In this document: piece after piece, positions 27,639 to 59,822 of the stretch
Layout of the letters: every line of letters starts with the position of its first letter
Numbering within the stretch: position 1 is the first letter of the stretch
Virus record (IMG/VR): IMGVR_UViG_3300032893_000735
Coordinates: 1-64,000 of that record
Strand: one strand, 5' to 3'
From: a virus
DNA: 64,000 nt
Translations under genes and position numbers: made by a program
Notes under the pieces: model-generated
Database searches by the model: none
Told to the model about the DNA's origin: nothing
Seen by the model: the letters and a program-made list of their open reading frames with translations, nothing else

Positions 27639-28030
27639 TCTGAATTAAATTTGCCGGTTTGACTCCCGTCGGAGCAGAGGACCGGCGGCCTCCGACCACG
27701 CGATTTGAGGACTGTTAGTAGCCTTGCGCGGGCAATATGTTAGGTTCAGGAGAGGGATTTTACTCTCATTCCCCACTAAATCGGGGTCTTAGTTAGATGA
27801 TCCTGACCTCTTCGATACGTAGGAAACACAACTACGCTCGGTGAACTATTGCCGCCGAAGCCACATTAGATGCTCCGGTTTCTCCTGCAAGAGCGGATGA
27901 TTTGTGGGCAGAGGTTGCAGCCTTCTGCTTTTTGTCACCCCTTTAATCGGCAAAACTTGGGAGCCTGACATCGTTCCGCTTCGGCTCCCTAAATCGCCGG
28001 GAAACGATAAAAACCGGCGAACTAAACAAC
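27639..28030 (-). ncRNA. structured leader or small RNA downstream of a strong promoter
   Basis: About 390 nt between a sigma70-type promoter and the 55-residue gene, with no convincing gene. Stems on the transcribed strand: 28019-28014 with 28000-27995 (CGCCGG), 27989-27983 with 27965-27959 (GGGAGCC), 27696-27690 with 27674-27668 (GTCGGAG), and a loosely tRNA-shaped fold at about 27730-27815 closed by GGTCAGG/CCTGAACC. No known riboswitch recognised. Either a long 5' leader or a free RNA. Confidence 0.45.
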
Positions 28031-28534: not shown

Positions 28535-28700
28535 AAGATTCCTTTTCCAGACCTTCGATGAAAGTGAGGAGGTTTCGGGCGAGGACCGTCTGGCCGTCCT
28601 CGTACCCGTCGTAATAATCGGGGGAGGCGTCGGAAATATCATCGACGCAGAAATCGCGGGTGCTAAGTTCGGACATCCAGGTGGTTAGTTTAGAGAGCAT
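28506..28700 (-). CDS. 64-residue acidic protein with YYDGYEDG motif
   Basis: ATG 28700 overlaps the stop of the HNH gene (TAATG). Acidic, with a motif shared with the next gene. No family recognised. Confidence 0.6.
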   Translation of the reverse strand: MLSKLTTWMSELSTRDFCVDDISDASPDYYDGYEDGQTVLARNLLTFIEGLEKESYARNETAEP

Positions 28701-29230
28701 TATGCGGCCTCCTTGAGTTGGGCGTCCATCCAGTCTGCTATGCGTCGGTGTTGTTCGGCTGTGCCTTCGTTCTTAATCCTATTTGCTTTGTATGAAATAA
28801 CTGCAACATTGCCAGGAACATAACCTAGTTCTGGAAGTATTCTGTCAAGGCTCGGGGAACTGTCTCTGTCTTTCATGTCCCCGAACTCTAGCTTAATTCC
28901 CAAGATCGGACAAAATTCCGGAATCACAATGTCCTCTTGTGTTATCGTACATTTGACTCCTGACTTCTTGCAACGTTGTTTGGCCAGTTTCAGAAGACCT
29001 CTTTCGGGGTTTTCTTTCAGAGACTTTTTCATCTGCTCCATGATTCTTAAAGAATGTTCAGCATAATATTGATTCTGAACTTTTCTGACCTCTTCATGGT
29101 TGGCGGCGTATCGTTCTCGATCTCGTTGGCGAGTACATTCTAGGCACAACGCAGTCCTACCACTTAATTTCTTGCCAAACTCTTCTATGGGTTTTTCTAC
29201 CCCACACTTCTTGCAAATCTTAGTTTTCAT
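28700..29230 (-). CDS. HNH-type homing endonuclease with zinc ribbon
   Basis: 176 residues. The start CKKCGVEKPIEEF...CLEC is the same zinc ribbon as in the gene at 18161. The C-terminal half has a CPILGIKLE segment and the SLDRILPELGYVPGNVAVIS pattern of phage HNH-fold nucleases; the first His of the motif is not obvious. Placed between the intron-rich capsid gene and a small-gene operon, driven by the promoter at 29318-29346. Confidence 0.82.
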   Translation of the reverse strand: MKTKICKKCGVEKPIEEFGKKLSGRTALCLECTRQRDRERYAANHEEVRKVQNQYYAEHSLRIMEQMKKSLKENPERGLLKLAKQRCKKSGVKCTITQEDIVIPEFCPILGIKLEFGDMKDRDSSPSLDRILPELGYVPGNVAVISYKANRIKNEGTAEQHRRIADWMDAQLKEAA

Positions 29231-29376: not shown

Positions 29377-32300
29377 CTAGCTGCTGGAAGTCTCTGATTG
29401 CAAACGTCTTAGCGTCATAGTGCTGCCAGGACGTAGCGTATTTGTGTACCTGCTCAGACTCCCTTCGGTCAGAGAGTCTTGTTTGTTACAGTCCATTTTC
29501 TGGACAGGGTAGATCATTTCTGTCTACCTCTCATGCTTCTTATTCGCATGAGGACGGACTATCGCATACTCTTTCGAGTCCCTCTCGCTTAGTCTCTCAC
29601 GGCGCCTTTCGGCTTCCGCCTTGTTCCCATTCACAGGATTCAAGTCGATCAGAGAAGGTTTAGACAACGCCATCAGGAACAACGTTGTAGCTGACCCCTG
29701 TTGCTACATAAGGTTAGACGGTGGACGGGTCATGCTGCTTTAAATCCACCGATTTGACGAGCCGGGTCTGATACTGAACCCTGCTCGGGTGCTGACTGGA
29801 TAAAGAGCTTCGACGTTTGTTACTGTCCATTTTCTGGACGGGCAGATCGTTTCTTGTTCCGTCTGCCTCTCTATGTCGCCATAGAGTTCGGACCATCTCA
29901 TCACCCTCAAAAGAGGGGCGCGGTATATGGCCTCTGCACGTTCCTGATTTCTCAGGCTTCGCTCAGGATTGTCTACGAGAGAGTTTCCCTGAATTAGCCG
30001 CGTGTTCGACAGCAGTTACCCGCTGAAGCTACAAGCAATATAGTTCTTTGATCCGTCATTGGGGTTCTTCCCGCGTATGTTACTCATTCTAAACAACTTA
30101 GAACGGGATGAATCATTTCTGTTCATCTCACTTGGTTACTATTCCCAAGTGTCCAGACTATTGCATCGCCCACAAAATGGACGCCACTTCGCTTAGTCGT
30201 TCACGGTGCTTTTCAGCTTCCGCCTCGTTGGCATTTCAGCGTTCGAGTCAATCAGAAGTGGTTTTCCAACGCAGATTACGCTGCGTGGTCCCCAGAGTTA
30301 AGGAAAACAGAGAAGATCGCGTCATCTCCAAAGATATACGTATTGTACAGTTATGTTACTCATTCTAAATGACTTAGAACGGGCTAGTGTATTTCTACCT
30401 AGCTCTGCATGTCGCCATGCAGCTCGGAGCACATCATCATCCTTTTCAGGAGCGCCGTCTATGCTCTCTACACACTTCCTGCTTCCAGGTTTGGCTCGGT
30501 ATTGTCTCAGAGAGATGTCCACCGAATTAGCGGCGTTATTCAAGAAGGATTACTCCTTCAGGCTACTAGACTTTCAGGTCCATAGGTATTTCCGGAGATC
30601 GTCACTGTAGGCGCAGTGCTGGTTTGTTTGAACGTAACACCCGCGAACGAAATGGTATCTTCGTTCCCAGGGAGGTCCATCAGCATACTGGCCTTGCTCG
30701 GGTCGCGCTTGAGGATATCCGTGAGGCCGTTGAACGAGGTATCGTTCAGGACATCGCGGACCACGTTCGGATGGATGACTCCGCCGAACTTGTTGTCCAC
30801 CAGCGGACGAGCGTTAACGCTAACCAGCGACTGAGCAGCCGACCGGATGTTATTCGCGGTCAGATACGAGCCGTTAGCAAGCTGAGAGTTGACCAAGCTG
30901 TCAACCGCAACTGCCGAGTCAGCGGTAATCTGGACAAGGCTGTTGAGGGTGAGGGCTAGGCGGTAGTTGAGTTCGTTTGCGAGGTTCTGCAAAAGACCCG
31001 GATCATCGATTGCGACATCGAGTGCCAGATCTGAACTGTTGATAAAATCGGCGTATTGGCCGCGTAGATGTTTTGGTTATCGATGTCACCATCGTAACTC
31101 TCTCATAGTCTCCTACGAGTTCGGGCTCTATCATCTTGTCCATTATTCAGACAAGTTCGGCATATTAGTCTCTATGGGTTCTGGTTTCCCAGTCTTCCCT
31201 CGGTATTGCCTCTTGGAGGTGTTCACCGATATAGCCGAATTTTACTACCACCGACGTTGCCGACATGGTAGCAACTATTTTGTTACTAGATTCAGAAATA
31301 GGAGAACCGCATTTGAGTTTAGGAGTCTAGCATCACTGCTAGATCGCGCCCGACATCACTGTCGGGATCGGACTCTATCATGCCCTCTTCTTCAAGAGGT
31401 CTCGGTGTATTAGCCTCTGAGGAGATTCCTCGAAAATTTAATTTCGCCATCTTCTCGAAGTAGTCAAGTTTCTGCTGCTTAGTCATGCTGTGGTTATTTC
31501 TAATCCACTCCAGCAGGAGAATAGCACGTTCTCTTTTAACTATAAGATACGGCAAGATCGCTAGGAGTTTGATTTCTCTCTGTTTTCGACCCGCTAATCC
31601 TCTAGCTTCAGACATCCTCCATGTCCCTTCGTCTCGGTTATCTTCCTTACGTTTTGACGTAGAGAAGGTTCCTCCGAAGCGGGACATTATCCAAGGAAAC
31701 ACAGTGTTGTCTGTGTTAGAGATACGAACATTTGAAGTATAAGCGCCGTTGCCCTTCTTCTTGCGCTTATCTATAGAGAAACTTCCTTCCGCGTCGATCA
31801 TACCGGCTAAATAAGCCCAATCTAATTTTGTAGGCTCAACCGGAATTATAGATTCTCTGACTACTTTTTTAGAAACAGGAACAAATGCGCCATTCGCTGT
31901 CTGCAAAGACCACATCAAATCATTTCGCCCTTCTGGATTCCTTTCGGAAAACATGGACAAGAATTGGTGCGATATATTTGCCTGCTTCTGTTTAAGAACG
32001 ATGTAAGGGAGTAGATTTCGAACAATGTCTCGACTGGACGTATACCAAGCATATTTTTGCTTTCGATTACCTTCTGTGGGTAATTTTCTCCACATGCCCC
32101 CAAACACCTGTACTAACCACTTCATAAGTGGCCTGTGGGAGTTGTAGACGTAAAGGGTGAATTGGTGCCCAGTTCCCTCTACTGATCGTATGCAAAAACT
32201 GCCGTCTCCGTCAATGAGACCCGCCAAATATGCCCATCTCTTTGGGCTGATTTTATCTTTATCCCTCAAGGAATTTTCCTCCGTCTTGTCTAGTCCTGCC

Positions 32301-33003
32301 GCCAGATATTAACGGATTTGACCGAGTTTAAGGACCGCAAGTGGTTTGTTTCCAATAACATGCGGCACGGTCCCTTCCGCGGCCTGATTCAAATTGGCCG
32401 CCAGAAGTGCGTAGGTATAGACAGTTTGTTTTTGGTTGACCGCATCTCTGCGGACTCGCTCTCATGGTTTCCCAAGAGTTCAGGCTGTGTCTTCAGTCCA
32501 TTCTGGACTGCCCGGCATGTCAGTCGTTCGGGAGCCTATTTCTAGGTTTCCTCGGCGTTGCCCTGTTCATTTATCATACTATCACGCCTGATAGTACGCG
32601 TCAACAGGGTTTTCGTCGATATAGTCGGGTTTGAATTCAGCGCTTTACCACTGAATCTGGTTGCCCTGCCGAAGCGGGAGCGGACGTTGCTTTGTCATGC
32701 TCAAGAACGGCGTCTGGGCTTTGAGGTTAGGGACTGCTTCGCGTTCATCAATGTGTTTTGGGTACTAGCATCTCTGCTAGTTCGCTCTGCATATTCCTAT
32801 GCAGTTCAGGCCGTGTCTTCAGTCCATTTTTCGGACTGTCTGGCGTCTCGGTCGTTACGGAGCCTATTTCTAGGTTTCCTCGAAGTTGCCCGGTCTGGGC
32901 CTCCTTCGATATAGCCAGATTTGAATTCACCAAGATTTTAGTGAATAGCTACCAAGTTCGGAAGCGCCCCGGATGTAACAATTGATGCAGGAGAGTAACT
33001 CAT
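29377..33003 (-). CDS. major capsid protein, split into 8 exons by 7 group I introns
   Basis: No single frame covers the gene. Joining 33003-32940, 32748-32650, 32421-32311, 31060-30582, 30347-30301, 30073-30034, 29813-29744 and 29477-29377 gives 1011 nt, 336 residues plus stop. Exon ends were set by the U.G pair of the P1 helix and introns ending in G. Every junction restores codon phase and the capsid pattern of the P22/N4-gp56 type: LPNLVAIH+Y+EREAVPNLKAQTPFL, GNQIQ+F+YTYALLAANLNQAAEGTV, LDVAIDD...NELNYRLALTLN, GVIHP...NGLTDILKR, then TYIFGDDAIF, GSVSDPARQIGG and a C-terminal TMTLRRLQSE. Starts with AAAGGT before ATG, 19 bp after the scaffold gene. Alternatives: intron 6 could begin 3 nt later. 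Without splicing only fragments such as exon 4 can be translated, so splicing should be essential for the virion. Confidence 0.88.
29478..29743 (-). other. group I intron 7 of the capsid gene (266 nt)
   Basis: Best P1: exon CGGUGGAU pairs over 8 bp with guide GUCCACCG, U.G at the splice site. Core GGAACAAGGCGGAAGCC and CCGUGAGAGACUAAGC with the AGAGACUA element. The terminal hairpin is the GTCC palindrome (29491-29505). Ends GUAACAAACAAG. The downstream exon completes a Tyr codon. Confidence 0.85.
29814..30033 (-). other. group I intron 6 of the capsid gene (220 nt)
   Basis: The most canonical core: AAUUCAGGGAAAC, GACAAUCCUGAGCGAAGCC and ACGUGCAGAGGCCAU. The 5' splice site is either after GCU (30034) or after UGU (30031); both keep the frame. 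The terminal hairpin before the 3' splice site is the GTCC palindrome (29825-29839). Ends GUAACAAACG. Confidence 0.8.
30074..30300 (-). other. group I intron 5 of the capsid gene (227 nt)
   Basis: P1: exon UUCCU with guide GGGGA, then an ACGCAG/CUGCGU stem. Core CCAACGAGGCGGAAGC and CCGUGAACGACUAAGC. A GTCC palindrome variant (30168-30182) sits in a side stem. Ends GUAACAUACG. Closely similar to intron 7. Confidence 0.8.
30348..30581 (-). other. group I intron 4 of the capsid gene (234 nt)
   Basis: Core: AAUUCGGUGGAC, GACAAUACCGAGCCAAACC and GUGUAGAGAGCAU, a clear P-Q-R-S set. P1 is the weakest of the set: exon CUAU with GUAG plus a GGAC/GUCU extension. Ends GUAACAUAACUG. The P9-like hairpin is GUUCUAAGUCAUUUAGAAU, in the place where introns 6 and 7 have the GTCC palindrome. 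This intron lacks a palindrome. Confidence 0.75.
31061..32310 (-). other. group I intron 3 of the capsid gene (1250 nt, carries a LAGLIDADG gene)
   Basis: P1: exon CCGUU with guide GGCGG. The nuclease gene occupies the region after P1; the catalytic core follows or overlaps its end: GGCAAUACCGAGGGAAG and AUAGAGACUAAUAUGCC, the latter with the classical AGAGACUA element. A GTCC palindrome (31138-31152) forms a peripheral hairpin with extended flanks (CUUGUC...GACAAG). Ends in G at 31061. Confidence 0.85.
31319..32269 (-). CDS. intron-encoded LAGLIDADG homing endonuclease
   Basis: 316 residues with two LAGLIDADG helices, YLAGLIDGDGSF near 14-25 and YLAGMIDAEGSF near 155-166, the two-domain monomer form that cuts asymmetric sites. 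Start TTG at 32269 with GGAGG 7-8 nt upstream. The C-terminal end overlaps the start of the intron's catalytic core. It would spread intron 3 into intron-less capsid genes; some such proteins also help splicing. Confidence 0.93.
   Translation of the reverse strand: MRDKDKISPKRWAYLAGLIDGDGSFCIRSVEGTGHQFTLYVYNSHRPLMKWLVQVFGGMWRKLPTEGNRKQKYAWYTSSRDIVRNLLPYIVLKQKQANISHQFLSMFSERNPEGRNDLMWSLQTANGAFVPVSKKVVRESIIPVEPTKLDWAYLAGMIDAEGSFSIDKRKKKGNGAYTSNVRISNTDNTVFPWIMSRFGGTFSTSKRKEDNRDEGTWRMSEARGLAGRKQREIKLLAILPYLIVKRERAILLLEWIRNNHSMTKQQKLDYFEKMAKLNFRGISSEANTPRPLEEEGMIESDPDSDVGRDLAVMLDS
32422..32649 (-). other. group I intron 2 of the capsid gene (228 nt)
   Basis: P1: exon AUUCAGU with guide GCUGAAU. 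The core repeats that of intron 1 (GGGCAACGCCGAGG, CCUAGAAAUAGG, GAACGACUGACA), so the two are close relatives. Contains a 13-bp GTCC palindrome (32496-32508) at the same place as in intron 1. An ACUAUCAGGCGUGAUAGU hairpin sits in another peripheral region. Confidence 0.85.
32749..32939 (-). other. group I intron 1 of the capsid gene (191 nt)
   Basis: P1 pairs exon end AUUCACU with guide GGUGAAU (U.G at the splice site). Core shows GGGCAACUUCGAGG, a CCUAGAAAUAGG hairpin with GAAA loop, and AACGACC. Ends in G (CACAUUG). A GTCC palindrome (32822-32836) forms a peripheral stem extended by flanking A/T pairs. No nuclease gene. Confidence 0.85.
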
Positions 33004-35550: not shown

Positions 35551-38500
35551 TTACAGAAGACTACCAAAACCTACTCCGCTAGTGTTCGGTGATCCAGTTA
35601 GTTCTTCTGGTTCGACTGCTCTCTTAAAGGATTCTCTCAACACGTCACGACTCGCACGGGCTATGTTCTCCTGGTCAGCCAACTCCTGCGCTTGCTGGAA
35701 CTTCTGTTGTTGCAACTGTGCTTGAGCTTGTGCCTGCGCTTGTATCTTCTGGTTCATCTGACCACCCTGCGACTGGGCCTGCTGACGGGCCAAATCTTGC
35801 GGGGTCATGTCAGTAATTATGTCGGACATACTCTTGCATTCCGCTGCTTCGAACCAGAGATGGAGAAGTTCAGTAACATCTATTTTCTTACCTTCAAGAG
35901 CCAGAGAGGATATGATTTCCGGATTGGCCAGCGTTTGCGAGAGCATCGGAAGGGCCTGATTCAGGTTTCTCCGAGTTTGCATTTTCGACCCAGCTAGGAT
36001 GTCAAACTTAACTTTCGCGTTCAGAATATCAACAAGATCCCCGCCGTTCTCAACATACTCATGTTTCAGTTCCTCGCTCATGATGAACTGGAGTTGAGAA
36101 AGTGGGAGCATCATTCGGTTCATTTCAGCCATATCATAAAGAAACGGCACAATAATCTGATTCGCCAGCTTGTCCACGCATTCGGAAATCACGTTGGACG
36201 CGCCCTGAGTCAGCGCCTGCGCCCCAGCGGAACTACGGGCCATATTGGAATGTCCGCTGGCCCCCGCGATACCCTGGGAGGTAATCGAGTTGTTCCCCGA
36301 CACTTCGCCCACCCTAGCTTGCGACTGAGTGAACAAATAACTGGCTTCTTGGACAGGCTCCCCGAACTTGAGCGGTTCCAGATCGCCCTTAGCGTCTACT
36401 TCAATAATCCGATTCGGACCAATTCGGATACTCTGCGTCGGTACCGACTTACCGCGAACCCGAAGCATCGGAGCGTTCAGCTTCAGGTTTGCGATGTTCA
36501 TAACCAGATTCGTGATGCCAGTTTGGACACGCTGTTCGGTTCCGATCGTGTTATGGGTGAGAATGCAGTCGTCAGTTACATACAGATGGTCAGGAGAATC
36601 GACCATGATGCACTGACACTGTTTCTGAGATACTAACTCTACTGACTTGATGAAGCGGGCCGGAAGATACTTTGTTCTAGGTACGTGCTTCTCCACTTTC
36701 CTAGTCAATCGGAAAGGATTAAAGGTAACACCTATAGTCAGAATAAACTGTCTGTCAGCAGGTTTTGCGAGACCTGTGTAATTCTTTTCCCAACCTTCTT
36801 TCCATCTCTTGGTGACGACAGTTACAGAACCTCCCAAAGACTGAACCAGAAATTTCACGTCATCCCGAAGTCTTTCTGAAGTTGTATAGAACTGACAGGC
36901 ACCGTTGCTCAGCGCAGAACCGTCTGTATCCATCAGACCAGCAAGAATTGCTTTTCTTTGAGCGACAGATCCGAACTTGTAGACATCGGGAATAAACTTG
37001 TAACGTGATGTGCAATTTACTCCGAGGTCACGAGTAACCCTACGGATTACATTACACTTTCCATCAAGAGAAGTAAACTTATAGTCATATTGACTTTGCG
37101 GAATTTTAGTGATCTTGGTATTTTCGGGCAGGACTTCGTTAATCCGATCTATGAGTTCTGGATCGGCAGTAGTAAATTTGGGAGTTTCGGTAGTCATACC
37201 CCCGTCGCCAAGAAGGAGCCCCATCAGGTACGGATCAAGAGGCTGTACCTTCTCTTCAAATTCTACTGGAGAAACTATAGGTATCCTGTACCGGCATTGG
37301 TGGTGGCCAGATTTTGCTTTTAAATCTCCCCAAATCTCCTGAAGTTCCAGAGTTCTAGTTTTCCACCCACGCTTCTGTTTGATTTTTGTCTTGGTTTGTA
37401 CTGTCCACAAATGTTCTTTGCAGCACTCAGTAGAAGAGCCGTCCGAAAAATGGACACGATAAACATCTTTCTCGCCTTGCGGATATATCCCAGTAACACA
37501 GTATGGCTTTCCATCAGAACCGATAACCTTGGTTCCAACTTCAACTTCTCCCATTGTAGTCCAACCATCTGGGGTCAAAATCTTAGCGTCAAGAGGCTGG
37601 GAGCGACCGAGCCCCAAACTCCAAAAACTTTGCGGAGAATCCCACCACCCAATCGAGTAAAACGGGATCTTGCCGTAGATATTCTTGTCGTTGTAAATTA
37701 CAAGTTTCTTCTGGAGGACTACGATGTACGTGTTGTTATCCCACCGTTCGAGGACTTCAAGCGGCTGCTGGAAAGGATCGATGGTCGTCTTTTCCCACGG
37801 AGAATCTGCCCGAGCGTCCCAAAGAGGATTACGCCCGCCTTCTTGCTGAGGGTTTGATTCGACAGGTTCTACAGGGGGGAGGAACAATTCAAGGAGTTTT
37901 TCACGTGACGGGATGTTGTAGCCTTCCCGTTCGCGGAGTCTGTCCAGGTCTTCCCAAGTCATGTACCGGCGGCGGATAACATACTTCGCTTTTCGAATAT
38001 CAGGAACGTCCAGACCGGGATCGACCAAGATTTCTCGCAGATTGACGATATGCTCGAATGTGGGCCTGTCTACGACCTCTTCTATTTCTTCGACTTCTAA
38101 TTCGTCATCCGTGATACTTGTAGCAGGCGCTCCGGGGATTGAACTGGGGATTACGATAGGAGGATTCTTGCGCTTGATGATTTTACGGGTACGAGTAAAT
38201 TTTTCCCATCCGGCTTGGAAGATGGCCGTGCCGAACAGCAGCATGTTCATGGTTCCCAGACGGATCTCTTCGCGGAAATTTATATCTTCTAATTGGTATC
38301 CGAGAAGTGCGGAAACGGCTCGGGCAGCTTGCGCCGAAGTTCCGCTTCGTTCTTGCGTCATAAAAGGAGGGTTCTCATAAAACAAACCGGCAAGAACTTG
38401 AGGGGTAAGACCGTTTACCGCAGTTGCAACCGTGTAGAAGTTTACAGAGGCCGCTTCCATCTGGGTTCCGGGCCAAAAATTCGGAGTCATGACCGCGTTG

Positions 38501-38697
38501 TAGAGGTCGCGGGCATTGTTCCAACCCATTAAATACTCGCGACGACGTTCTCCGCTGTCGGCCTTTTCCGCGTCCTGTAGTACAAGTTTTAGCGGAGCTG
38601 AATCAGACGAAGCCCAGGATTGATCGTTAAGAAACGAGAGCGCCTCTTCTTTTGTGAGGTCTTGGTAAGCGTTAACCTCTGGCTGATTTAGTATCAT
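35551..38697 (-). CDS. portal protein interrupted by an intein
   Basis: 1048 residues as encoded. Residues 1-365 and 717-1048 are portal: helical N-terminal part, WDSPQSFWSLGLGR at the junction, then TIGTEQRVQTGI, and a Gln-rich C-terminus (about 985-1015) typical of podovirus portals. The portal forms the dodecameric ring at the packaging vertex and binds the terminase. Splicing out 351 residues leaves 697 residues, a normal size. The ATG follows directly on the stop of a GIY-YIG gene. Only the intein interrupts it; no intron signs. Confidence 0.9.
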   Translation of the reverse strand: MILNQPEVNAYQDLTKEEALSFLNDQSWASSDSAPLKLVLQDAEKADSGERRREYLMGWNNARDLYNAVMTPNFWPGTQMEAASVNFYTVATAVNGLTPQVLAGLFYENPPFMTQERSGTSAQAARAVSALLGYQLEDINFREEIRLGTMNMLLFGTAIFQAGWEKFTRTRKIIKRKNPPIVIPSSIPGAPATSITDDELEVEEIEEVVDRPTFEHIVNLREILVDPGLDVPDIRKAKYVIRRRYMTWEDLDRLREREGYNIPSREKLLELFLPPVEPVESNPQQEGGRNPLWDARADSPWEKTTIDPFQQPLEVLERWDNNTYIVVLQKKLVIYNDKNIYGKIPFYSIGWWDSPQSFWSLGLGRSQPLDAKILTPDGWTTMGEVEVGTKVIGSDGKPYCVTGIYPQGEKDVYRVHFSDGSSTECCKEHLWTVQTKTKIKQKRGWKTRTLELQEIWGDLKAKSGHHQCRYRIPIVSPVEFEEKVQPLDPYLMGLLLGDGGMTTETPKFTTADPELIDRINEVLPENTKITKIPQSQYDYKFTSLDGKCNVIRRVTRDLGVNCTSRYKFIPDVYKFGSVAQRKAILAGLMDTDGSALSNGACQFYTTSERLRDDVKFLVQSLGGSVTVVTKRWKEGWEKNYTGLAKPADRQFILTIGVTFNPFRLTRKVEKHVPRTKYLPARFIKSVELVSQKQCQCIMVDSPDHLYVTDDCILTHNTIGTEQRVQTGITNLVMNIANLKLNAPMLRVRGKSVPTQSIRIGPNRIIEVDAKGDLEPLKFGEPVQEASYLFTQSQARVGEVSGNNSITSQGIAGASGHSNMARSSAGAQALTQGASNVISECVDKLANQIIVPFLYDMAEMNRMMLPLSQLQFIMSEELKHEYVENGGDLVDILNAKVKFDILAGSKMQTRRNLNQALPMLSQTLANPEIISSLALEGKKIDVTELLHLWFEAAECKSMSDIITDMTPQDLARQQAQSQGGQMNQKIQAQAQAQAQLQQQKFQQAQELADQENIARASRDVLRESFKRAVEPEELTGSPNTSGVGFGSLL
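36550..37602 (-). mobile_element. LAGLIDADG intein in the portal protein (351 residues)
   Basis: Begins at Ser (residue 366: SQPLDAKILTPDGW, block A with Asp at position 5) and ends ILTHN followed by Thr, the +1 nucleophile. Block B is the T-x-x-x-x-x-H pattern near GSSTECCKEHLW. Two LAGLIDADG helices (LMGLLLGDGG and AILAGLMDTDGS) give an active-looking homing endonuclease. Block F is DSPDHLYVTDD. A Ser rather than Cys at position 1 is normal but less common; Gln as first residue one position later is the alternative. A GTCC palindrome (37441-37455) is inside it. Confidence 0.92.
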
Positions 38698-51470: not shown

Positions 51471-51549
51471 AGCGGAAGACGAGATTCGAACTCGCATGTC
51501 TAAGACGGTTGCTTGGAAGGCAACGGCTCTACCACTGAGCGACTTCCGC
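51471..51549 (-). tRNA. tRNA-Gly(UCC)
   Basis: Acceptor GCGGAAG closes, anticodon loop CTTCCAA in stem GTTGC/GCAAC, T-loop TTCGAAT. CCA is encoded (51470-51468). Last gene of the array; a GGGGC/GCCCC hairpin near 51396-51414 follows. Confidence 0.9.
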
Positions 51550-51557
51550 GAACTTGG

Positions 51558-51633
51558 TCCCCGAAGACGGACTTGAACCGCCCACCTAGCGGTTATCGAC
51601 CGCTTGCTCTTGTCAAGATGAGCTATTCGGGGA
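51558..51633 (-). tRNA. tRNA-Ile(GAU)
   Basis: Acceptor TCCCCGA, anticodon loop TCGATAA in stem AGCGG/CCGCT, encoded CCA. Confidence 0.88.
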
Positions 51634-51636
51634 TGG

Positions 51637-51708
51637 TGCCGAATAAGAGATTCGAACTCCTGTCTTCTGGGTGTAGACCAGAGGCCCTGCCTTTAGGCGA
51701 ACTCGGCA
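51637..51708 (-). tRNA. tRNA-Val(UAC)
   Basis: Acceptor TGCCGAG, anticodon loop TCTACAC in stem TCTGG/CCAGA, encoded CCA. Confidence 0.88.
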
Positions 51709-51715
51709 AAACTGG

Positions 51716-51787
51716 TGATCGCAGACAGAATCAAACTGTCATATCAGGCTTCGGAGACCTGCGCTCTGTTCTTTGAGCTATGCGACC
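51716..51787 (-). tRNA. tRNA-Arg(CCG)
   Basis: Anticodon loop CTCCGAA in stem CAGGT/GCCTG; acceptor GGTCGCA, encoded CCA. Confidence 0.85.
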
Positions 51788-51794
51788 AAACTGG

Positions 51795-51867
51795 AGATCC
51801 CGCCGAGACTCAAACTCGGGTCTGAAGTTTAGGAAACTACTGCTCTATTCTCCTGAGCTACGGGACC
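51795..51867 (-). tRNA. tRNA-Arg(CCU)
   Basis: Anticodon loop TTCCTAA; one mismatch in the anticodon stem. Acceptor GGTCCCG with a G.U pair, encoded CCA. Confidence 0.8.
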
Positions 51868-51876
51868 GAAACTTGG

Positions 51877-51949
51877 AACTCCTGGAGGGAGTCGAACCCC
51901 CGACCTAGACTTTAGAAAAATCCCGCTCTTCCGTCTGAGCTACAGGAGC
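51877..51949 (-). tRNA. tRNA-Arg(UCU)
   Basis: Anticodon loop TTTCTAA, acceptor GCTCCTG, T-loop TTCGACT, encoded CCA. Confidence 0.88.
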
Positions 51950-51956
51950 AAACTGG

Positions 51957-52028
51957 TAGACCGCCAGAGACTCGAACTCTGTCCAAGACGCGGTAAAAGC
52001 ACGTTATGCACCCTCACACTCACGGTCC
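51957..52028 (-). tRNA. tRNA-Lys(UUU)
   Basis: Anticodon loop CTTTTAC in stem ACGTG/CGCGT; D-arm is unusual. Encoded CCA. Confidence 0.78.
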
Positions 52029-52037
52029 AAAACTTGG

Positions 52038-52110
52038 TGCGTCCAGAGGGAAACGATCCCCCGACCTTCTCATTAAGAGTGAGTTGCTCTACCAACTGAG
52101 CTATGGACGC
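52038..52110 (-). tRNA. tRNA-Lys(CUU)
   Basis: Anticodon loop CTCTTAA, acceptor GCGTCCA, canonical D-arm (GCTCAGTTGGTAGAGC), encoded CCA. Confidence 0.88.
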
Positions 52111-52114
52111 ATGG

Positions 52115-52204
52115 TAGGCGATGAGTGAGTTGAACACTCCCGTTGCGCTAATCTGGCGCTTTCCCGAGTCTATAAGTCTCAGCCGCACACCGATGCTATC
52201 GCCC
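52115..52204 (-). tRNA. class II tRNA, identity unclear
   Basis: 90 nt with acceptor GGGCGAT, T-arm GAGTG/CACTC and a long variable arm (GCGC/GCGC). The anticodon arm CTGAG/CTCGG encloses nine bases (ACTTATAGA), so the anticodon cannot be fixed; Tyr or Leu by class, discriminator A. Tyr is otherwise missing from the set. Confidence 0.65.
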
Positions 52205-52214
52205 GTAAACTTGG

Positions 52215-52283
52215 TGCCAAAGCGGGGAATCAAACCCCTCATTCCGCTTTATGAGGGCAGATGCCGAATCATCGGCCTTGGCA
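52215..52283 (-). tRNA. tRNA with CAU anticodon (Met or Ile2)
   Basis: Anticodon loop CTCATAA, acceptor TGCCAAG, short (69 nt) with C.A mismatch closing the loop. CAU could be elongator Met or lysidine-modified Ile. Confidence 0.72.
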
Positions 52284-52290
52284 AAACTGG

Positions 52291-52363
52291 CGGGAGATGT
52301 AGGATTTTAACCCACAAGTTCCGGGTTGGAGCCGGACAGTTTGACATTGAGCTTAATCTCCCG
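52291..52363 (-). tRNA. tRNA-Trp(CCA)
   Basis: Anticodon loop CTCCAAC in stem TCCGG/CCGGA, acceptor CGGGAGA; T-loop TTAAAAT is atypical. Encoded CCA. Confidence 0.82.
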
Positions 52364-52366
52364 TGG

Positions 52367-52438
52367 AACCCGGTAGCGGAGTTCAACCGCTGTTTCGAAG
52401 TTCGTAGCTTCGCGCCTTATGCGTTAGACGAACCGGGC
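52367..52438 (-). tRNA. tRNA-Arg(ACG)
   Basis: Anticodon loop CTACGAA in stem CGAAG/CTTCG, acceptor GCCCGGT, encoded CCA. A34 would need editing to inosine. Confidence 0.88.
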
Positions 52439-52450
52439 ATTTTAAAATGG

Positions 52451-52522
52451 TCGGGGTAGAGGTAATCGAAACCTCGTCTTATGATCCCAAATCATAGGCT
52501 TGACCTTCCAGCTATACCCCGA
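52451..52522 (-). tRNA. tRNA-Pro(UGG)
   Basis: Anticodon loop TTTGGGA in stem TATGA/TCATA, acceptor TCGGGGT, encoded CCA. Confidence 0.9.
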
Positions 52523-52525
52523 TGG

Positions 52526-52598
52526 TGGGCAGTCGCAGAATCGAACTGCGCCGTGAGGCTTTTCAGACCTCCGTTCCAACCATGCAAACTCACTACCC
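52526..52598 (-). tRNA. tRNA-Phe(GAA)
   Basis: Anticodon loop CTGAAAA in stem GAGGT/GCCTC, acceptor GGGTAGT, encoded CCA. Confidence 0.88.
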
Positions 52599-52710
52599 AA
52601 AACTTATTCGGTTTTATCTGCATCATCATTCTCGGGCATATAAGAGGTTAGTCAAGCTAACGTAGGATGCTTGCAATGGCAGAGCGGGAAACCGAAAAAC
52701 ACCTTTGTAT
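52599..52710. other. gap inside the tRNA array
   Basis: 112 bp without a tRNA. CGGTTT and AAACCG close a possible 90-nt stem-loop with an inner GTTAG/CTAAC hairpin; no anticodon arm or T-arm is seen. Possibly a decayed tRNA or a small RNA. Confidence 0.35.
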
Positions 52711-52713
52711 TGG

Positions 52714-52786
52714 TGGAGCATGTCGGATCTGCCCCGACTGCCTCCGCGTTGCAGGCGCGGCGCTCTCCTAATTGAGCTAATGCCCC
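52714..52786 (-). tRNA. tRNA-Ala(UGC)
   Basis: Acceptor GGGGCAT/ATGCTCC contains the G3.U70 pair that marks alanine tRNAs. Anticodon loop CCTGCAA gives UGC but has C instead of U at position 33. Encoded CCA. Its 5' base is the last base of the HNH gene's stop codon. Confidence 0.8.
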
Positions 52787-53325
52787 TACTCGGGGTGCCT
52801 CCATTTGTAAGGCCCGTCCCGATTATTATAGTGGTCCAAATCATGACAATTAGGGCATAAGAGTTCCAAATTGTCTATCGTATTATTTGTTCGATCTCTA
52901 TCCTTATGGTGAACTTGCAAAATTTCCGGATGAAGATCATACCCACATCTGTTACAAATCTTATCGTAAGTTCGAAGTGCTATCGCTCTGTAGCTGTATC
53001 TTCCATCGCCATAATGACTTGGTCTGAGAATTTCATTATGCTTTCCCATTCTTTGGGCGTCATCTTTGCAGATTCTAGAACAAAATCGGAGTCCGCTCTT
53101 CGATTTCTTGAGATTAGATTGACTTCTGTAAAAGATCAACCCACAGTTGTCACACTTTAGTTCATGTATTTTAGACGGATTGGATGCTCGGAAACATTCA
53201 GGGCTACAGTATCTCCTACCTGCATGTTTTGGGGCATAGAAACTTTTTCCGCAAAAAGTACAGAACTGCAAAAACAACTTACGCTGCTTTCCATCATAGA
53301 TAGTTGAAACAATTACCTCTTCCAC
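52786..53325 (-). CDS. HNH endonuclease inside the tRNA array
   Basis: 179 residues from GTG 53325 (AGAGGA 8 nt upstream); the open frame extends to 53367 without a better start. Two zinc ribbons (CTFCGKSFYAPKH...CSPEC; CDNCGLIFYRS...CSRIC) precede a C-terminal HNH domain (CNRCGYD...LQVHHKDRDRTNN...LELLCPNCHDLDH). Free-standing homing-type nuclease; its TAG overlaps the first base of tRNA-Ala. Confidence 0.9.
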   Translation of the reverse strand: MEEVIVSTIYDGKQRKLFLQFCTFCGKSFYAPKHAGRRYCSPECFRASNPSKIHELKCDNCGLIFYRSQSNLKKSKSGLRFCSRICKDDAQRMGKHNEILRPSHYGDGRYSYRAIALRTYDKICNRCGYDLHPEILQVHHKDRDRTNNTIDNLELLCPNCHDLDHYNNRDGPYKWRHPE

Positions 53326-53443
53326 GTTTAGTCCTCTTCTGGGGGCGGGACCTACGCGAATCATCAATCCACCACCTGTAGAATTTCTATGCTACAGGAC
53401 ATTTACCACGCTTGAGTTTAGCATCCTCAAACACTTATTTTGG

Positions 53444-53520
53444 GGTGGCCGGAGGAAGTTGAATCCTCAAGAAGCAAATTCCACAGACTTGTCCGACATA
53501 CCCGTAGTCGGCACGGCCAC
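53444..53520 (-). tRNA. tRNA-His(GUG)
   Basis: Anticodon loop CTGTGGA in stem CAAGT/ATTTG; acceptor GTGGCCG/CGGCCAC with discriminator C, unique to histidine. CCA encoded; the extra G-1 is not encoded. Confidence 0.88.
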
Positions 53521-53550
53521 ACTTGTTGTCCATTATCTGGACGAAACTGG

Positions 53551-53629
53551 AGCCTAGTGAGGGACTCGAACCCTCGCGTTGGAATGGCAGTTTACAAAAC
53601 TGCTGCTGTCGCCGCTGAGCCAACTAGGC
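53551..53629 (-). tRNA. tRNA-Thr(UGU)
   Basis: Anticodon loop TTTGTAA in stem GCAGT/ACTGC, acceptor GCCTAGT, encoded CCA. A GTCC palindrome (53528-53542) lies between it and tRNA-His. Confidence 0.9.
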
Positions 53630-53675
53630 ATTTCACGTCCGCACTTAGGGAGGCGGAACTCCAACTTACAAAGAA

Positions 53676-53704
53676 ATACTACCACAACATTTCTTAATTG
53701 TCAA
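53676..53704 (-). promoter_or_regulatory. promoter within the tRNA array
   Basis: Minus strand: TTGACA (53704-53699), 17 bp ending TGTGG, TAGTAT (53681-53676), in the gap between tRNA-Thr(GGU) and tRNA-Thr(UGU). Confidence 0.72.
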
Positions 53705-53715
53705 GCGAAATCTGG

Positions 53716-53788
53716 AGCCGAATAGCGGCCTCAAACCGCTGTCTCATGCGTACCAAGCATGTGCTCTTTCTGTTGAGCTAATTCGGCT
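53716..53788 (-). tRNA. tRNA-Thr(GGU)
   Basis: Anticodon loop TTGGTAC in stem CATGC/GCATG, acceptor AGCCGAA, encoded CCA. Confidence 0.88.
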
Positions 53789-53791
53789 TGG

Positions 53792-53862
53792 AGCCCAATT
53801 GGGGAATTCAACCCCAGTCTTCTCTGTACGAAGGAGATGTACTGGCACTGTACTAATCGGGC
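53792..53862 (-). tRNA. tRNA-Thr(CGU)
   Basis: Anticodon loop TTCGTAC, acceptor GCCCGAT, encoded CCA; the last stem pair before the loop is mismatched. Confidence 0.8.
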
Positions 53863-53871
53863 ATTAGTTGG

Positions 53872-53943
53872 CTCCGCCGCGAGGTTACGATCCCCGTTTC
53901 CCGAGTTCAAAGCCCGGTGCCTTACCGATTAGACGACGGCGGA
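53872..53943 (-). tRNA. tRNA-Gln(UUG)
   Basis: Anticodon loop CTTTGAA in stem CCGGG/CTCGG, acceptor TCCGCCG, discriminator G, encoded CCA. Confidence 0.88.
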
Positions 53944-53952
53944 ATAACTTGG

Positions 53953-54028
53953 GGAGGTAGACGGGAATTGAACCCGCGTAACACGGTGTGAAAGACCGTG
54001 GACAAAAACCAGCGTTGTCGGCTACCTC
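53953..54028 (-). tRNA. tRNA-Glu(UUC)
   Basis: Anticodon loop CTTTCAC in stem ACGGT/ACCGT, acceptor GAGGTAG, T-loop TTCAATT, encoded CCA. Confidence 0.88.
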
Positions 54029-54048
54029 AAACTTTTTATCTAAAATGG

Positions 54049-54132
54049 CGGAAGTCGGAGGTAACGATCCCCCATCCCTTTCGGGAGCCACGGTTTTCAA
54101 AACCGTTTGTCTCACCATCGACGGCGACTTCC
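54049..54132 (-). tRNA. tRNA-Ser(UGA)
   Basis: Class II, anticodon loop TTTGAAA in stem ACGGT/ACCGT, variable arm CTCCCGAAAGGGAT, discriminator G. Confidence 0.9.
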
Positions 54133-54139
54133 AAACTGG

Positions 54140-54224
54140 CGGTTGGTTGAGAAATCGAATCCCCGTGCCTTACGACACTCCGACTGCTTTCGAAACAGTT
54201 TGCGAACCTTTCGCGGAACCAACC
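54140..54224 (-). tRNA. tRNA-Ser(CGA)
   Basis: Class II, anticodon loop TTCGAAA in stem ACTGT/GCAGT, acceptor GGTTGGT/ACCAACC, discriminator G. Confidence 0.88.
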
Positions 54225-54377
54225 TTAAACTAATTCGCGGAGAGAATTTCGGCGTCAGTACAATGTTTCTTTCGCTGGGCAGTTTCTCTCTGCCTCGGAT
54301 CGGGTTCTAGACCCCGTTAGCTAGTACCTGAAAAGCATCCCTCGTCTGCACACGACCTATTTCTAGCGCGAAACTGG
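54225..54377. other. unexplained 150-bp element between two tRNA-Ser genes
   Basis: On the minus strand TTCGCG near the start and CGCGAA near the end can close a long stem. Inside are CTAGAAATAG, GGCAG/CTGCC and GAGAGAA/TTCTCTC pairings and a palindromic GGGTTCTAGACCC (plus strand, T-loop-like). It does not fold as a normal tRNA. Candidate small RNA or intron remnant. Confidence 0.4.
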
Positions 54378-54460
54378 CGGAAAGCACAGGAGTTTAACCT
54401 GATACCTTTCAGTACGCATCCGCTTCCAACGGAGCCTCGGAACGTCCGAGTTTACTTTCC
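54378..54460 (-). tRNA. tRNA-Ser(GGA)
   Basis: Class II, anticodon loop TTGGAAG in stem TCCG/CGGA, acceptor GGAAAGT, discriminator G. Confidence 0.85.
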
Positions 54461-54464
54461 ATGG

Positions 54465-54550
54465 CGGAGAAGGTGGGTGCTGACCCCACGCGGCTCTTTC
54501 AAGTCCACTGGTTTAGCAAACCAGCCCGTTTACCGTTCCGGCACTTCTCC
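54465..54550 (-). tRNA. tRNA-Ser(GCU)
   Basis: Class II, anticodon loop TTGCTAA in stem CTGGT/ACCAG, acceptor GGAGAAG, discriminator G. Confidence 0.9.
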
Positions 54551-54561
54551 GTAAAACTTGG

Positions 54562-54624
54562 TTGAGAACGTGTGCTCTGGTCGGGTTGATTAAGCACGTT
54601 TACCGCAGCCGACCAGCGTTCTCA
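54562..54624 (-). ncRNA. tRNA-like RNA without D- and T-arms
   Basis: 63 nt with a perfect 7-bp acceptor TGAGAAC/GTTCTCA, discriminator A and encoded CCA, spaced like its neighbours. The interior is not a cloverleaf: CTGGTCGG pairs with CCGACCAG around a loop, and no T-loop (TTCnAnn) exists. Could be a truncated tRNA, an RNase P substrate or a decoy. Confidence 0.6.
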
Positions 54625-54631
54625 AACTTGG

Positions 54632-54706
54632 TGCGGATGGTCGGATTTGAGCCGACAGACCGAAAGGTTTGAGCTTTCGAGGTATTCCAATTCCCATCAC
54701 ATCCGC
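54632..54706 (-). tRNA. tRNA-Leu(CAA), short variable arm
   Basis: Anticodon loop CTCAAAC in stem GAAAG/CTTTC; acceptor GCGGATG/CATCCGC, discriminator A. Lacks the long variable arm expected for leucine. Confidence 0.75.
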
Positions 54707-54714
54707 AAACTTGG

Positions 54715-54793
54715 TACCCGCAGAGGGACTTGAACCCCCACCCCTAGAGAATGCATCCTAAGTGCATCGTGTCTGCCATTCCACCATGCGGGC
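54715..54793 (-). tRNA. tRNA-Leu(UAG)
   Basis: Anticodon loop CTTAGGA in stem ATGCA/TGCAT, acceptor GCCCGCA, encoded CCA. Confidence 0.85.
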
Positions 54794-54806
54794 AAAATTA
54801 AACTGG

Positions 54807-54890
54807 TACTCGGGAAGGGACTCGAACCCTCATCCCCTTTCGAGGATTAGCACCTCAAGCTAACGCGGCTTCCAATTTCGCCACCCGAGT
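54807..54890 (-). tRNA. tRNA-Leu(GAG)
   Basis: Class II, anticodon loop TTGAGGT in stem TTAGC/GCTAA, acceptor ACTCGGG, variable arm CCTCGAAAGGGG. Confidence 0.88.
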
Positions 54891-54968
54891 AAAACTTTGT
54901 CGGATTTGTCCAGGCGGGGTCCGACTGGCCTCGATACGTTTAAAGTGGTGTTTGTCATCCACTAATGG

Positions 54969-55040
54969 AGTACCGTGCTGGACTTCAACCAGCTAAAGAG
55001 GTTTTGCAGACCTCTGATTCGAGCCTTTATCTTACGGTAC
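54969..55040 (-). tRNA. tRNA-Cys(GCA)
   Basis: Anticodon loop CTGCAAA in stem GAGGT/ACCTC, T-arm GCTGG/CCAGC, discriminator U as in cysteine tRNAs. The gap 54891-54968 holds two hairpins (GTCGGA/TCCGAC, GTGG/CCAC) and no tRNA. Confidence 0.88.
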
Positions 55041-55044
55041 ATGG

Positions 55045-55117
55045 TAGGCGGCCCGAGATTCGAACTCGGATATCAACGATCTTAAATCGTTTGCCTTTGC
55101 CGTTAGGCTAGCCGCCC
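55045..55117 (-). tRNA. tRNA-Leu(UAA), short variable arm
   Basis: Anticodon loop TTTAAGA in stem AACGA/TCGTT, acceptor GGGCGGC, T-loop TTCGAAT, discriminator A. No long variable arm. First gene of the array, right after the promoter. Confidence 0.8.
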
Positions 55118-59719: not shown

Positions 59720-59822
59720 TCGCAGAGTGGCCGTCCGGAAAATGGACGGTTAATGCGGCGGTCCCGTCACAAGCCGGGACAATCCAAACCGTATTCCGTG
59801 AAACTCACGGCGAAAGGGAAAC

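Follow-up and report, generated by a model that had tools for sequence, protein, structure and literature searches.

How is an essential viral gene read when nine inserts interrupt it, and when one of these is too short to hold a ribozyme core? The question is raised by a stretch of viral DNA of 64,000 nucleotides (nt), positions 1 to 64,000 of the IMG/VR record IMGVR_UViG_3300032893_000735, which we refer to below as 'the window'. On its minus strand, from 33003 to 29377, lies a major capsid gene that yields a product of 327 amino acids (aa) only after nine inserts have been removed. Eight of them, 191-1057 nt long, are group I introns. The ninth, of 46 nt, has the ends and the exon-pairing guide of a group I intron and no catalytic core; we refer to it, and to others like it, as 'minis'. 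We consider it quite probable from these sequences that the capsid gene is an intron hotspot of this phage lineage, that the eight introns and their core-less derivative are all removed from the messenger RNA, and that the mini depends on a core from elsewhere, most likely that of the next intron downstream.

The capsid gene and its junctions

Junctions were called with a spliced-alignment script that aligns protein against DNA and permits inserts in all codon phases. The reference was the protein of L001, a relative in which the gene is uninterrupted and encodes 327 aa. Relatives comprised seventy viral contigs retrieved with the largest exon as query, and further ones retrieved with an alignment; their uninterrupted capsid genes encode mostly 327 or 328 aa. 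In the window, the gene has ten exons, at 33003-32940, 32748-32650, 32421-32367, 31309-31265, 31062-30582, 30347-30301, 30073-30040, 29810-29744, 29697-29682 and 29452-29380 (64, 99, 55, 45, 481, 47, 34, 67, 16 and 73 nt), followed by the stop codon TAG at 29379-29377. Joined, they amount to 981 nt plus TAG, and the protein aligns without gaps to that of L001, with 94% identity over residues 89-249. At every junction the 5' exon ends in U, the insert ends in G and the reading frame is kept; the alignment rewards a terminal G slightly, and codons determine most of the junctions.

A preliminary description of the locus had already recognized the interrupted gene, and alignment to uninterrupted relatives confirms both its coordinates and the three junction properties just given. 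Its count and its lengths have had to be revised. It listed seven group I introns, and was right that there are many in an essential capsid gene, but there are eight full introns and the 46-nt mini, nine inserts in all; and its joined gene of 1011 nt and 336 residues was too long. Both errors lie at the 3' end, where an exon of only 16 nt separates the 46-nt insert from an intron of 229 nt.

The joined protein matches phrog_1357, 'major head protein' (E=6e-16), has no Pfam match, and is encoded near the portal and terminase genes. A separate intact capsid gene, named in the preliminary description among the findings that would refute its reading, was sought throughout the 105,825-nt record (by query only in the part outside the window), and there is none. 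Tunturiibacter phage Tunturi_3 alone among annotated phages has a relative of this protein; its gene, with 44% identity, is also named 'major head protein'. Two further relatives of the gene belong to contigs that were binned as Acidobacteriota, L136 (Ca. Sulfotelmatobacter) and L137 (Acidobacteria fen_180). From the phage and these contigs together, the host is probably an acidobacterium.

Eight full group I introns

All eight full introns can form P1, the pairing between guide and 5' exon, over 4-10 base pairs (bp) with U.G at the cut, and all end in G. A P3-P7 core is present in seven, identified by the Rfam group I model RF00028 in five and by covariation in two. The five are intron 1 (site 22.1, 191 nt, 32939-32749; 44.5 bits, E=2.9e-9; P1 of 7 bp with U.G), at a site occupied in seven other non-redundant relatives as well; intron 2 (site 55.1, 228 nt, 32649-32422; 34.7 bits, E=2.6e-6; P1 of 8 bp); intron 4 (site 88.2, 202 nt, 31264-31063; 43 bits, E=8.5e-9; P1 of 10 bp); intron 5 (site 248.0, 234 nt, 30581-30348; 37 bits, E=1.5e-7); and intron 7 (site 275.0, 229 nt, 30039-29811; 61 bits). 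Only the last of these five matches exceeds the Rfam gathering score, and RF00028 has no match in the window outside the capsid gene.

Intron 3 (site 73.2, 1057 nt, 32366-31310; P1 of 9 bp) is assigned to group I by its position and its ends; its 3' half gives a weak RF00028 match (19.4 bits, E=0.098). In relatives this site holds introns of 1057-1060 nt. In the window, this intron carries an open reading frame (ORF) of 316 aa for a LAGLIDADG homing endonuclease (31319-32269, minus strand; PF00961, E=1.5e-11).

Introns 6 (site 264.2, 227 nt, 30300-30074) and 8 (site 303.2, 229 nt, 29681-29453; P1 ACAACGU/GCGUUGU) belong to a class that RF00028 does not detect. The search of the gaps with this model, proposed in the preliminary description, finds five introns, misses these two and registers intron 3 weakly. 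Seventeen members of the class, from eight sites and including introns 6 and 8, make up an alignment, A2, in which P3, P4, P5, P6 and the P7 pseudoknot are paired in 96.4% of cells, with two-sided changes at 19 of 27 pairs. None of 500 shuffles reached this pairing, and a one- to three-column shift of the partner reduced it to 37-46%. A model of the A2 class, R1, matches only introns 6 (115 bits) and 8 (110 bits) in the window, scores that are not independent because both introns went into building it. As group I introns, the eight large inserts are presumably self-splicing.

An intron hotspot in the lineage

Uninterrupted in 20 of 63 non-redundant genes, the capsid gene has one to nine inserts in the others. 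Full introns occur at about 39 sites, different subsets of which are occupied in different relatives; in this tally a few site numbers are off by one residue, as the reference proteins are not all of one length, and a few sites recorded a single time are possibly alignment errors. Calls in L008, L026, L039, L058, L070, L071 and L128, in L054 at 71.1 and in L092 at 279.2, were discarded as artefacts of contig ends or of distant references. The inserts are not there by chance, as 20 non-redundant relatives have an undivided gene and the others differ in the subset of sites that is occupied. Group I introns above the Rfam gathering score were found in 11 of 16 relatives scanned. The window is matched in number by L068, which also has eight full introns and a mini, at sites that are partly different; L069, 97.5% identical to L068, is without one of these introns. 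Contigs resembling cDNA, with the same exons and no inserts, were sought among the relatives and none was found: near-identical contigs share their inserts, save for the one full intron that separates L068 from L069, and the intronless L001 has no intron-bearing twin. The preliminary description considered the gene exceptional. The number of inserts is even higher than it supposed, but the gene is not a single oddity: it is an intron hotspot common to a lineage of probably acidobacterial phages.

In L017, similar introns stand at 310.0 and 318.0, where one gene holds two copies of the target ACACTGCGT (Thr-Leu-Arg), which looks like the spread of one intron to another matching target.

A 46-nt insert without a core

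The mini of the window (site 298.1, 29743-29698, minus strand) is missing from the uninterrupted gene and brings an in-frame stop. The preliminary description ascribed a group I core to every insert; this one is too short for a core, and its core-less nature had been overlooked. What it does contain is a guide, at 29719-29732, composed of UGACCC, which pairs with GGGUCA of the 3' exon (P10), followed by GUCCACCG, which pairs with CGGUGGAU of the 5' exon (P1), with U.G at the cut. The predicted ligated junction has GGTGGAT on its 5' side and GGGTCAGC on its 3' side, and the guide matches it over 14 contiguous pairs (p=0.0005 against shuffles). A second helix, stem S (29686-29708), pairs UGUAGC near the 3' end of the mini (29708-29703) with GCUACA in the next exon (29691-29686), with the 3' splice site in the loop between them. 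Six phages have a mini at exactly site 298.1. In L029, stem S is altered on both sides, to UGUAAC/GUUACA.

Altogether there are nineteen minis, of 32-59 nt, at eight sites (30.2, 32.0, 40.0, 92.0, 185/186.0, 297.0, 298.1 and 310.0). All nineteen give an in-frame stop if read through, all end in G, and all have a guide that can pair with the joined exons: a G faces the last U of the 5' exon, with P1 on one side and P10 adjacent on the other. Guides pair with their own exons at a mean of 12.2 of 13 positions, and at 6.3 when swapped between minis. Combined over the minis, the guide reaches p=6e-31 and stem S p=7e-9. Phages with a mini at site 298.1 use GGA, GGT, GGC or GGG for the glycine before the cut, and the guide matches each (A-U, U.G, C-G or G-C at position -2); the valine codon after the cut is tracked likewise, and only 1 in 720 permutations attains the true assignment of guides to exons. 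Codons 298-327, which lie behind this mini, are nevertheless conserved, with 641 synonymous and 50 non-synonymous pairwise differences.

Stem S, formed across the splice site by the 3' part of the mini and the 3' exon, is found in most minis. Tested mini by mini it is weak (p 0.006 to 0.76), so the claim relies on the combined test, on the changes kept at 298.1 and on folding. Of nine minis folded by energy, most form stem S alongside the P1 hairpin; single-sequence energies are only mildly better than those of shuffles (z -0.9 to -3.2). Guide and stem S occupy almost the whole of the 32-59 nt, and a P3-P7 core is absent. In nine of the nineteen, stem S ends 9 or fewer bases from the next intron.

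The P1-loop sequence AGCAGCAT (29740-29732 in the window) is common to minis at different sites; AGCAGCATAATTA is found at 298.1 in L011 and at 186.0 in L066. These loops resemble those of some full introns, and their common sequence is a hint of shared origin or of a functional loop.

Sites 185/186.0, 40.0, 32.0 and 310.0 hold a mini in some relatives and a full intron in others, and 5' ends can be similar, as in a full intron of L057 (TAACATTTGGGTGGATATAAAA) and a mini of L065 (TAAATATTGGGTGGATGAATAAA). Most simply, minis can be read as introns that have lost their core.

How might the minis be removed?

We propose that minis use the core of a neighbouring intron, since they occur only in genes with full introns (17 of 17 mini-bearing genes, and none of the 20 intronless genes), and since a full intron follows further downstream in every one of the nine genes whose mini is at 297/298, as against 15 of 34 others. 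Each mini would retain only the parts that face the exons: the guide that grips both exon ends through P1, with its U.G, and P10; the terminal G; and stem S, which would present the 3' splice site in a loop. The neighbour's core would accept the mini's P1 and terminal G. For the mini of the window the likeliest donor is intron 8, which starts 16 nt downstream and could act before or after its own removal. The core might work in cis, as part of the next intron, or in trans, as a freed intron; the sequence fits either. Such an arrangement would be a natural 'spliceozyme', in which a group I core removes from the same transcript a second intron, which lacks a core but brings a P1/P10 guide of its own and a hairpin at the 3' splice site; one ribozyme would then serve more than one intron. 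This stronger formulation we regard as evenly balanced. An engineered Tetrahymena group I spliceozyme does remove a separate intron of 64-100 nt in trans and join the exons (PMC4094466). The proposed arrangement is alike in that a single group I core would act on a short intron other than its own; it differs in that the guide lies inside the mini rather than on the ribozyme, and in being natural and deduced from sequence.

The main alternative is that a mini, tiny as it is, splices by itself without help from another core, as is reported for the 67-nt PaSSU intron of Phialophora. The nearest precedents for minis are indeed the degenerate group I introns found in nuclear rRNA of fungi, which are 56-81 nt long (63-75 nt for the PaSSU introns), and one PaSSU-type intron is reported to splice in vitro (PMC3160393). 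The plan is the same: P1 with its G.U pair, P10 and a pairing (PM) between mid-intron and 3' exon, to which guide and stem S correspond, and no usual core (P3-P6 and P8). But minis are shorter, end in G rather than U, and lie in phage protein genes, at eight sites; complete group I introns always accompany them, which a self-sufficient element would not need. The PaSSU type, moreover, has a reduced P7 with an unpaired base, whereas no P7-like element was identified in minis, although no systematic search for one was made. Self-splicing minis therefore seem to us improbable.

A second alternative leaves the mini in the RNA, to be bypassed by the ribosome. Translational bypass of a gap of about 50 nt is known from gene 60 of phage T4, and a mini is of similar size. 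At site 298.1, moreover (six minis), the take-off and landing codons are both glycine, as a bypass would have it. At the other seven of the eight sites these codons are mismatched (e.g. ACT/TTG and CAT/TTG), and on this ground we reject bypass as very unlikely. Minis also cut in all three codon phases, at sites shared with full introns, and carry the marks of group I introns: U.G at the cut, a terminal G and P10. That the gene is a pseudogene in decay, or an artefact of assembly, given that metagenome assemblies can be chimeric and that some spliced alignments did go astray at contig ends, is scarcely credible and already contradicted by the same inserts in independent contigs (L017-L020, L024-L028, L060-L062 and L081/L084), by purifying selection on the exons and by its being the sole capsid gene of the record.

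Several points weigh against our reading of the gene. Splicing itself, and the choice of the core that serves the mini, are deduced from sequence. The p-values of the two associations (Fisher p=0.0004 for minis with full introns, p=0.002 for the downstream intron) are optimistic, because the sequences are related by descent; in-frame stops and guide changes that track synonymous codons are independent of them. Among the nineteen guides, that of L034 is not independent evidence, its mini having been cut first at 309.2 and then re-cut by hand to 310.0 on guide fit. The core of intron 3 is weakly supported. And no single donor stands out among the neighbouring introns: the distance from mini to next full intron varies from 16 to 182 nt, and the next full introns belong to more than one class. 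A tie between minis and one class of full intron was considered and rejected, as L060, L066 and L081 have no R1-class intron.

Neighbouring genes and other features

Directly downstream of the capsid gene is a free-standing endonuclease gene (28700-29230, minus strand; phrog_3322 endonuclease, E=6e-35; phrog_1035 endonuclease VII, E=4e-26). It is a probable homing endonuclease, and could drive the spread of introns that have no endonuclease of their own. An ORF directly after the capsid gene is also present in the intronless L001 (1382-2025).

Elsewhere in the window, the portal gene (35551-38697, minus strand) has an apparent intein, with Hint (PF05203, below cut-off) and LAGLIDADG_3 domains within the portal match. 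A dense array of about 20 tRNA genes occupies 51471-55117 (minus strand), and a weak tRNA-Sec-like match lies at 54050-54132. A Type-P5 twister ribozyme (59721-59778, plus strand; 57.3 bits) is above its gathering score, and a CyVA-1 RNA match (27950-28027, minus strand) falls just below, at 39.6 bits against 41.4.

Relation to known introns, and significance

Group I introns are familiar in phage protein genes, for example Twort orf142 and those of the Bastillevirinae; some have homing endonuclease ORFs, exon skipping is known, and surveys have found up to three introns per gene (PMC11878797). The introns described here are of the same self-splicing type, and one likewise carries such an ORF. 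They differ in number, with eight and a mini in a gene of 981 nt, and about 39 sites in the family. Intron splicing in a capsid gene has reportedly been seen in mycobacteriophages of cluster J as well (PMC3706429), in phages unrelated to these. Our search of open-access papers found no core-less intron in phages, and tiny degenerate group I introns for fungal rRNA only.

With eight group I introns, this small and essential phage gene goes far beyond the three per gene of the phage survey (PMC11878797). Gene callers and RF00028 overlook genes and introns of this kind. As a hotspot, the capsid gene offers a natural system for intron gain, intron loss and the order of splicing. The core-less minis are the stronger point, for they suggest that a group I intron may lose its core and persist on that of a neighbour. 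Spliceosomal introns are thought to derive from group II introns, and minis would be an analogue: if they are served by a natural spliceozyme, this would be a group I counterpart of the step from introns that splice themselves to introns served by shared machinery.

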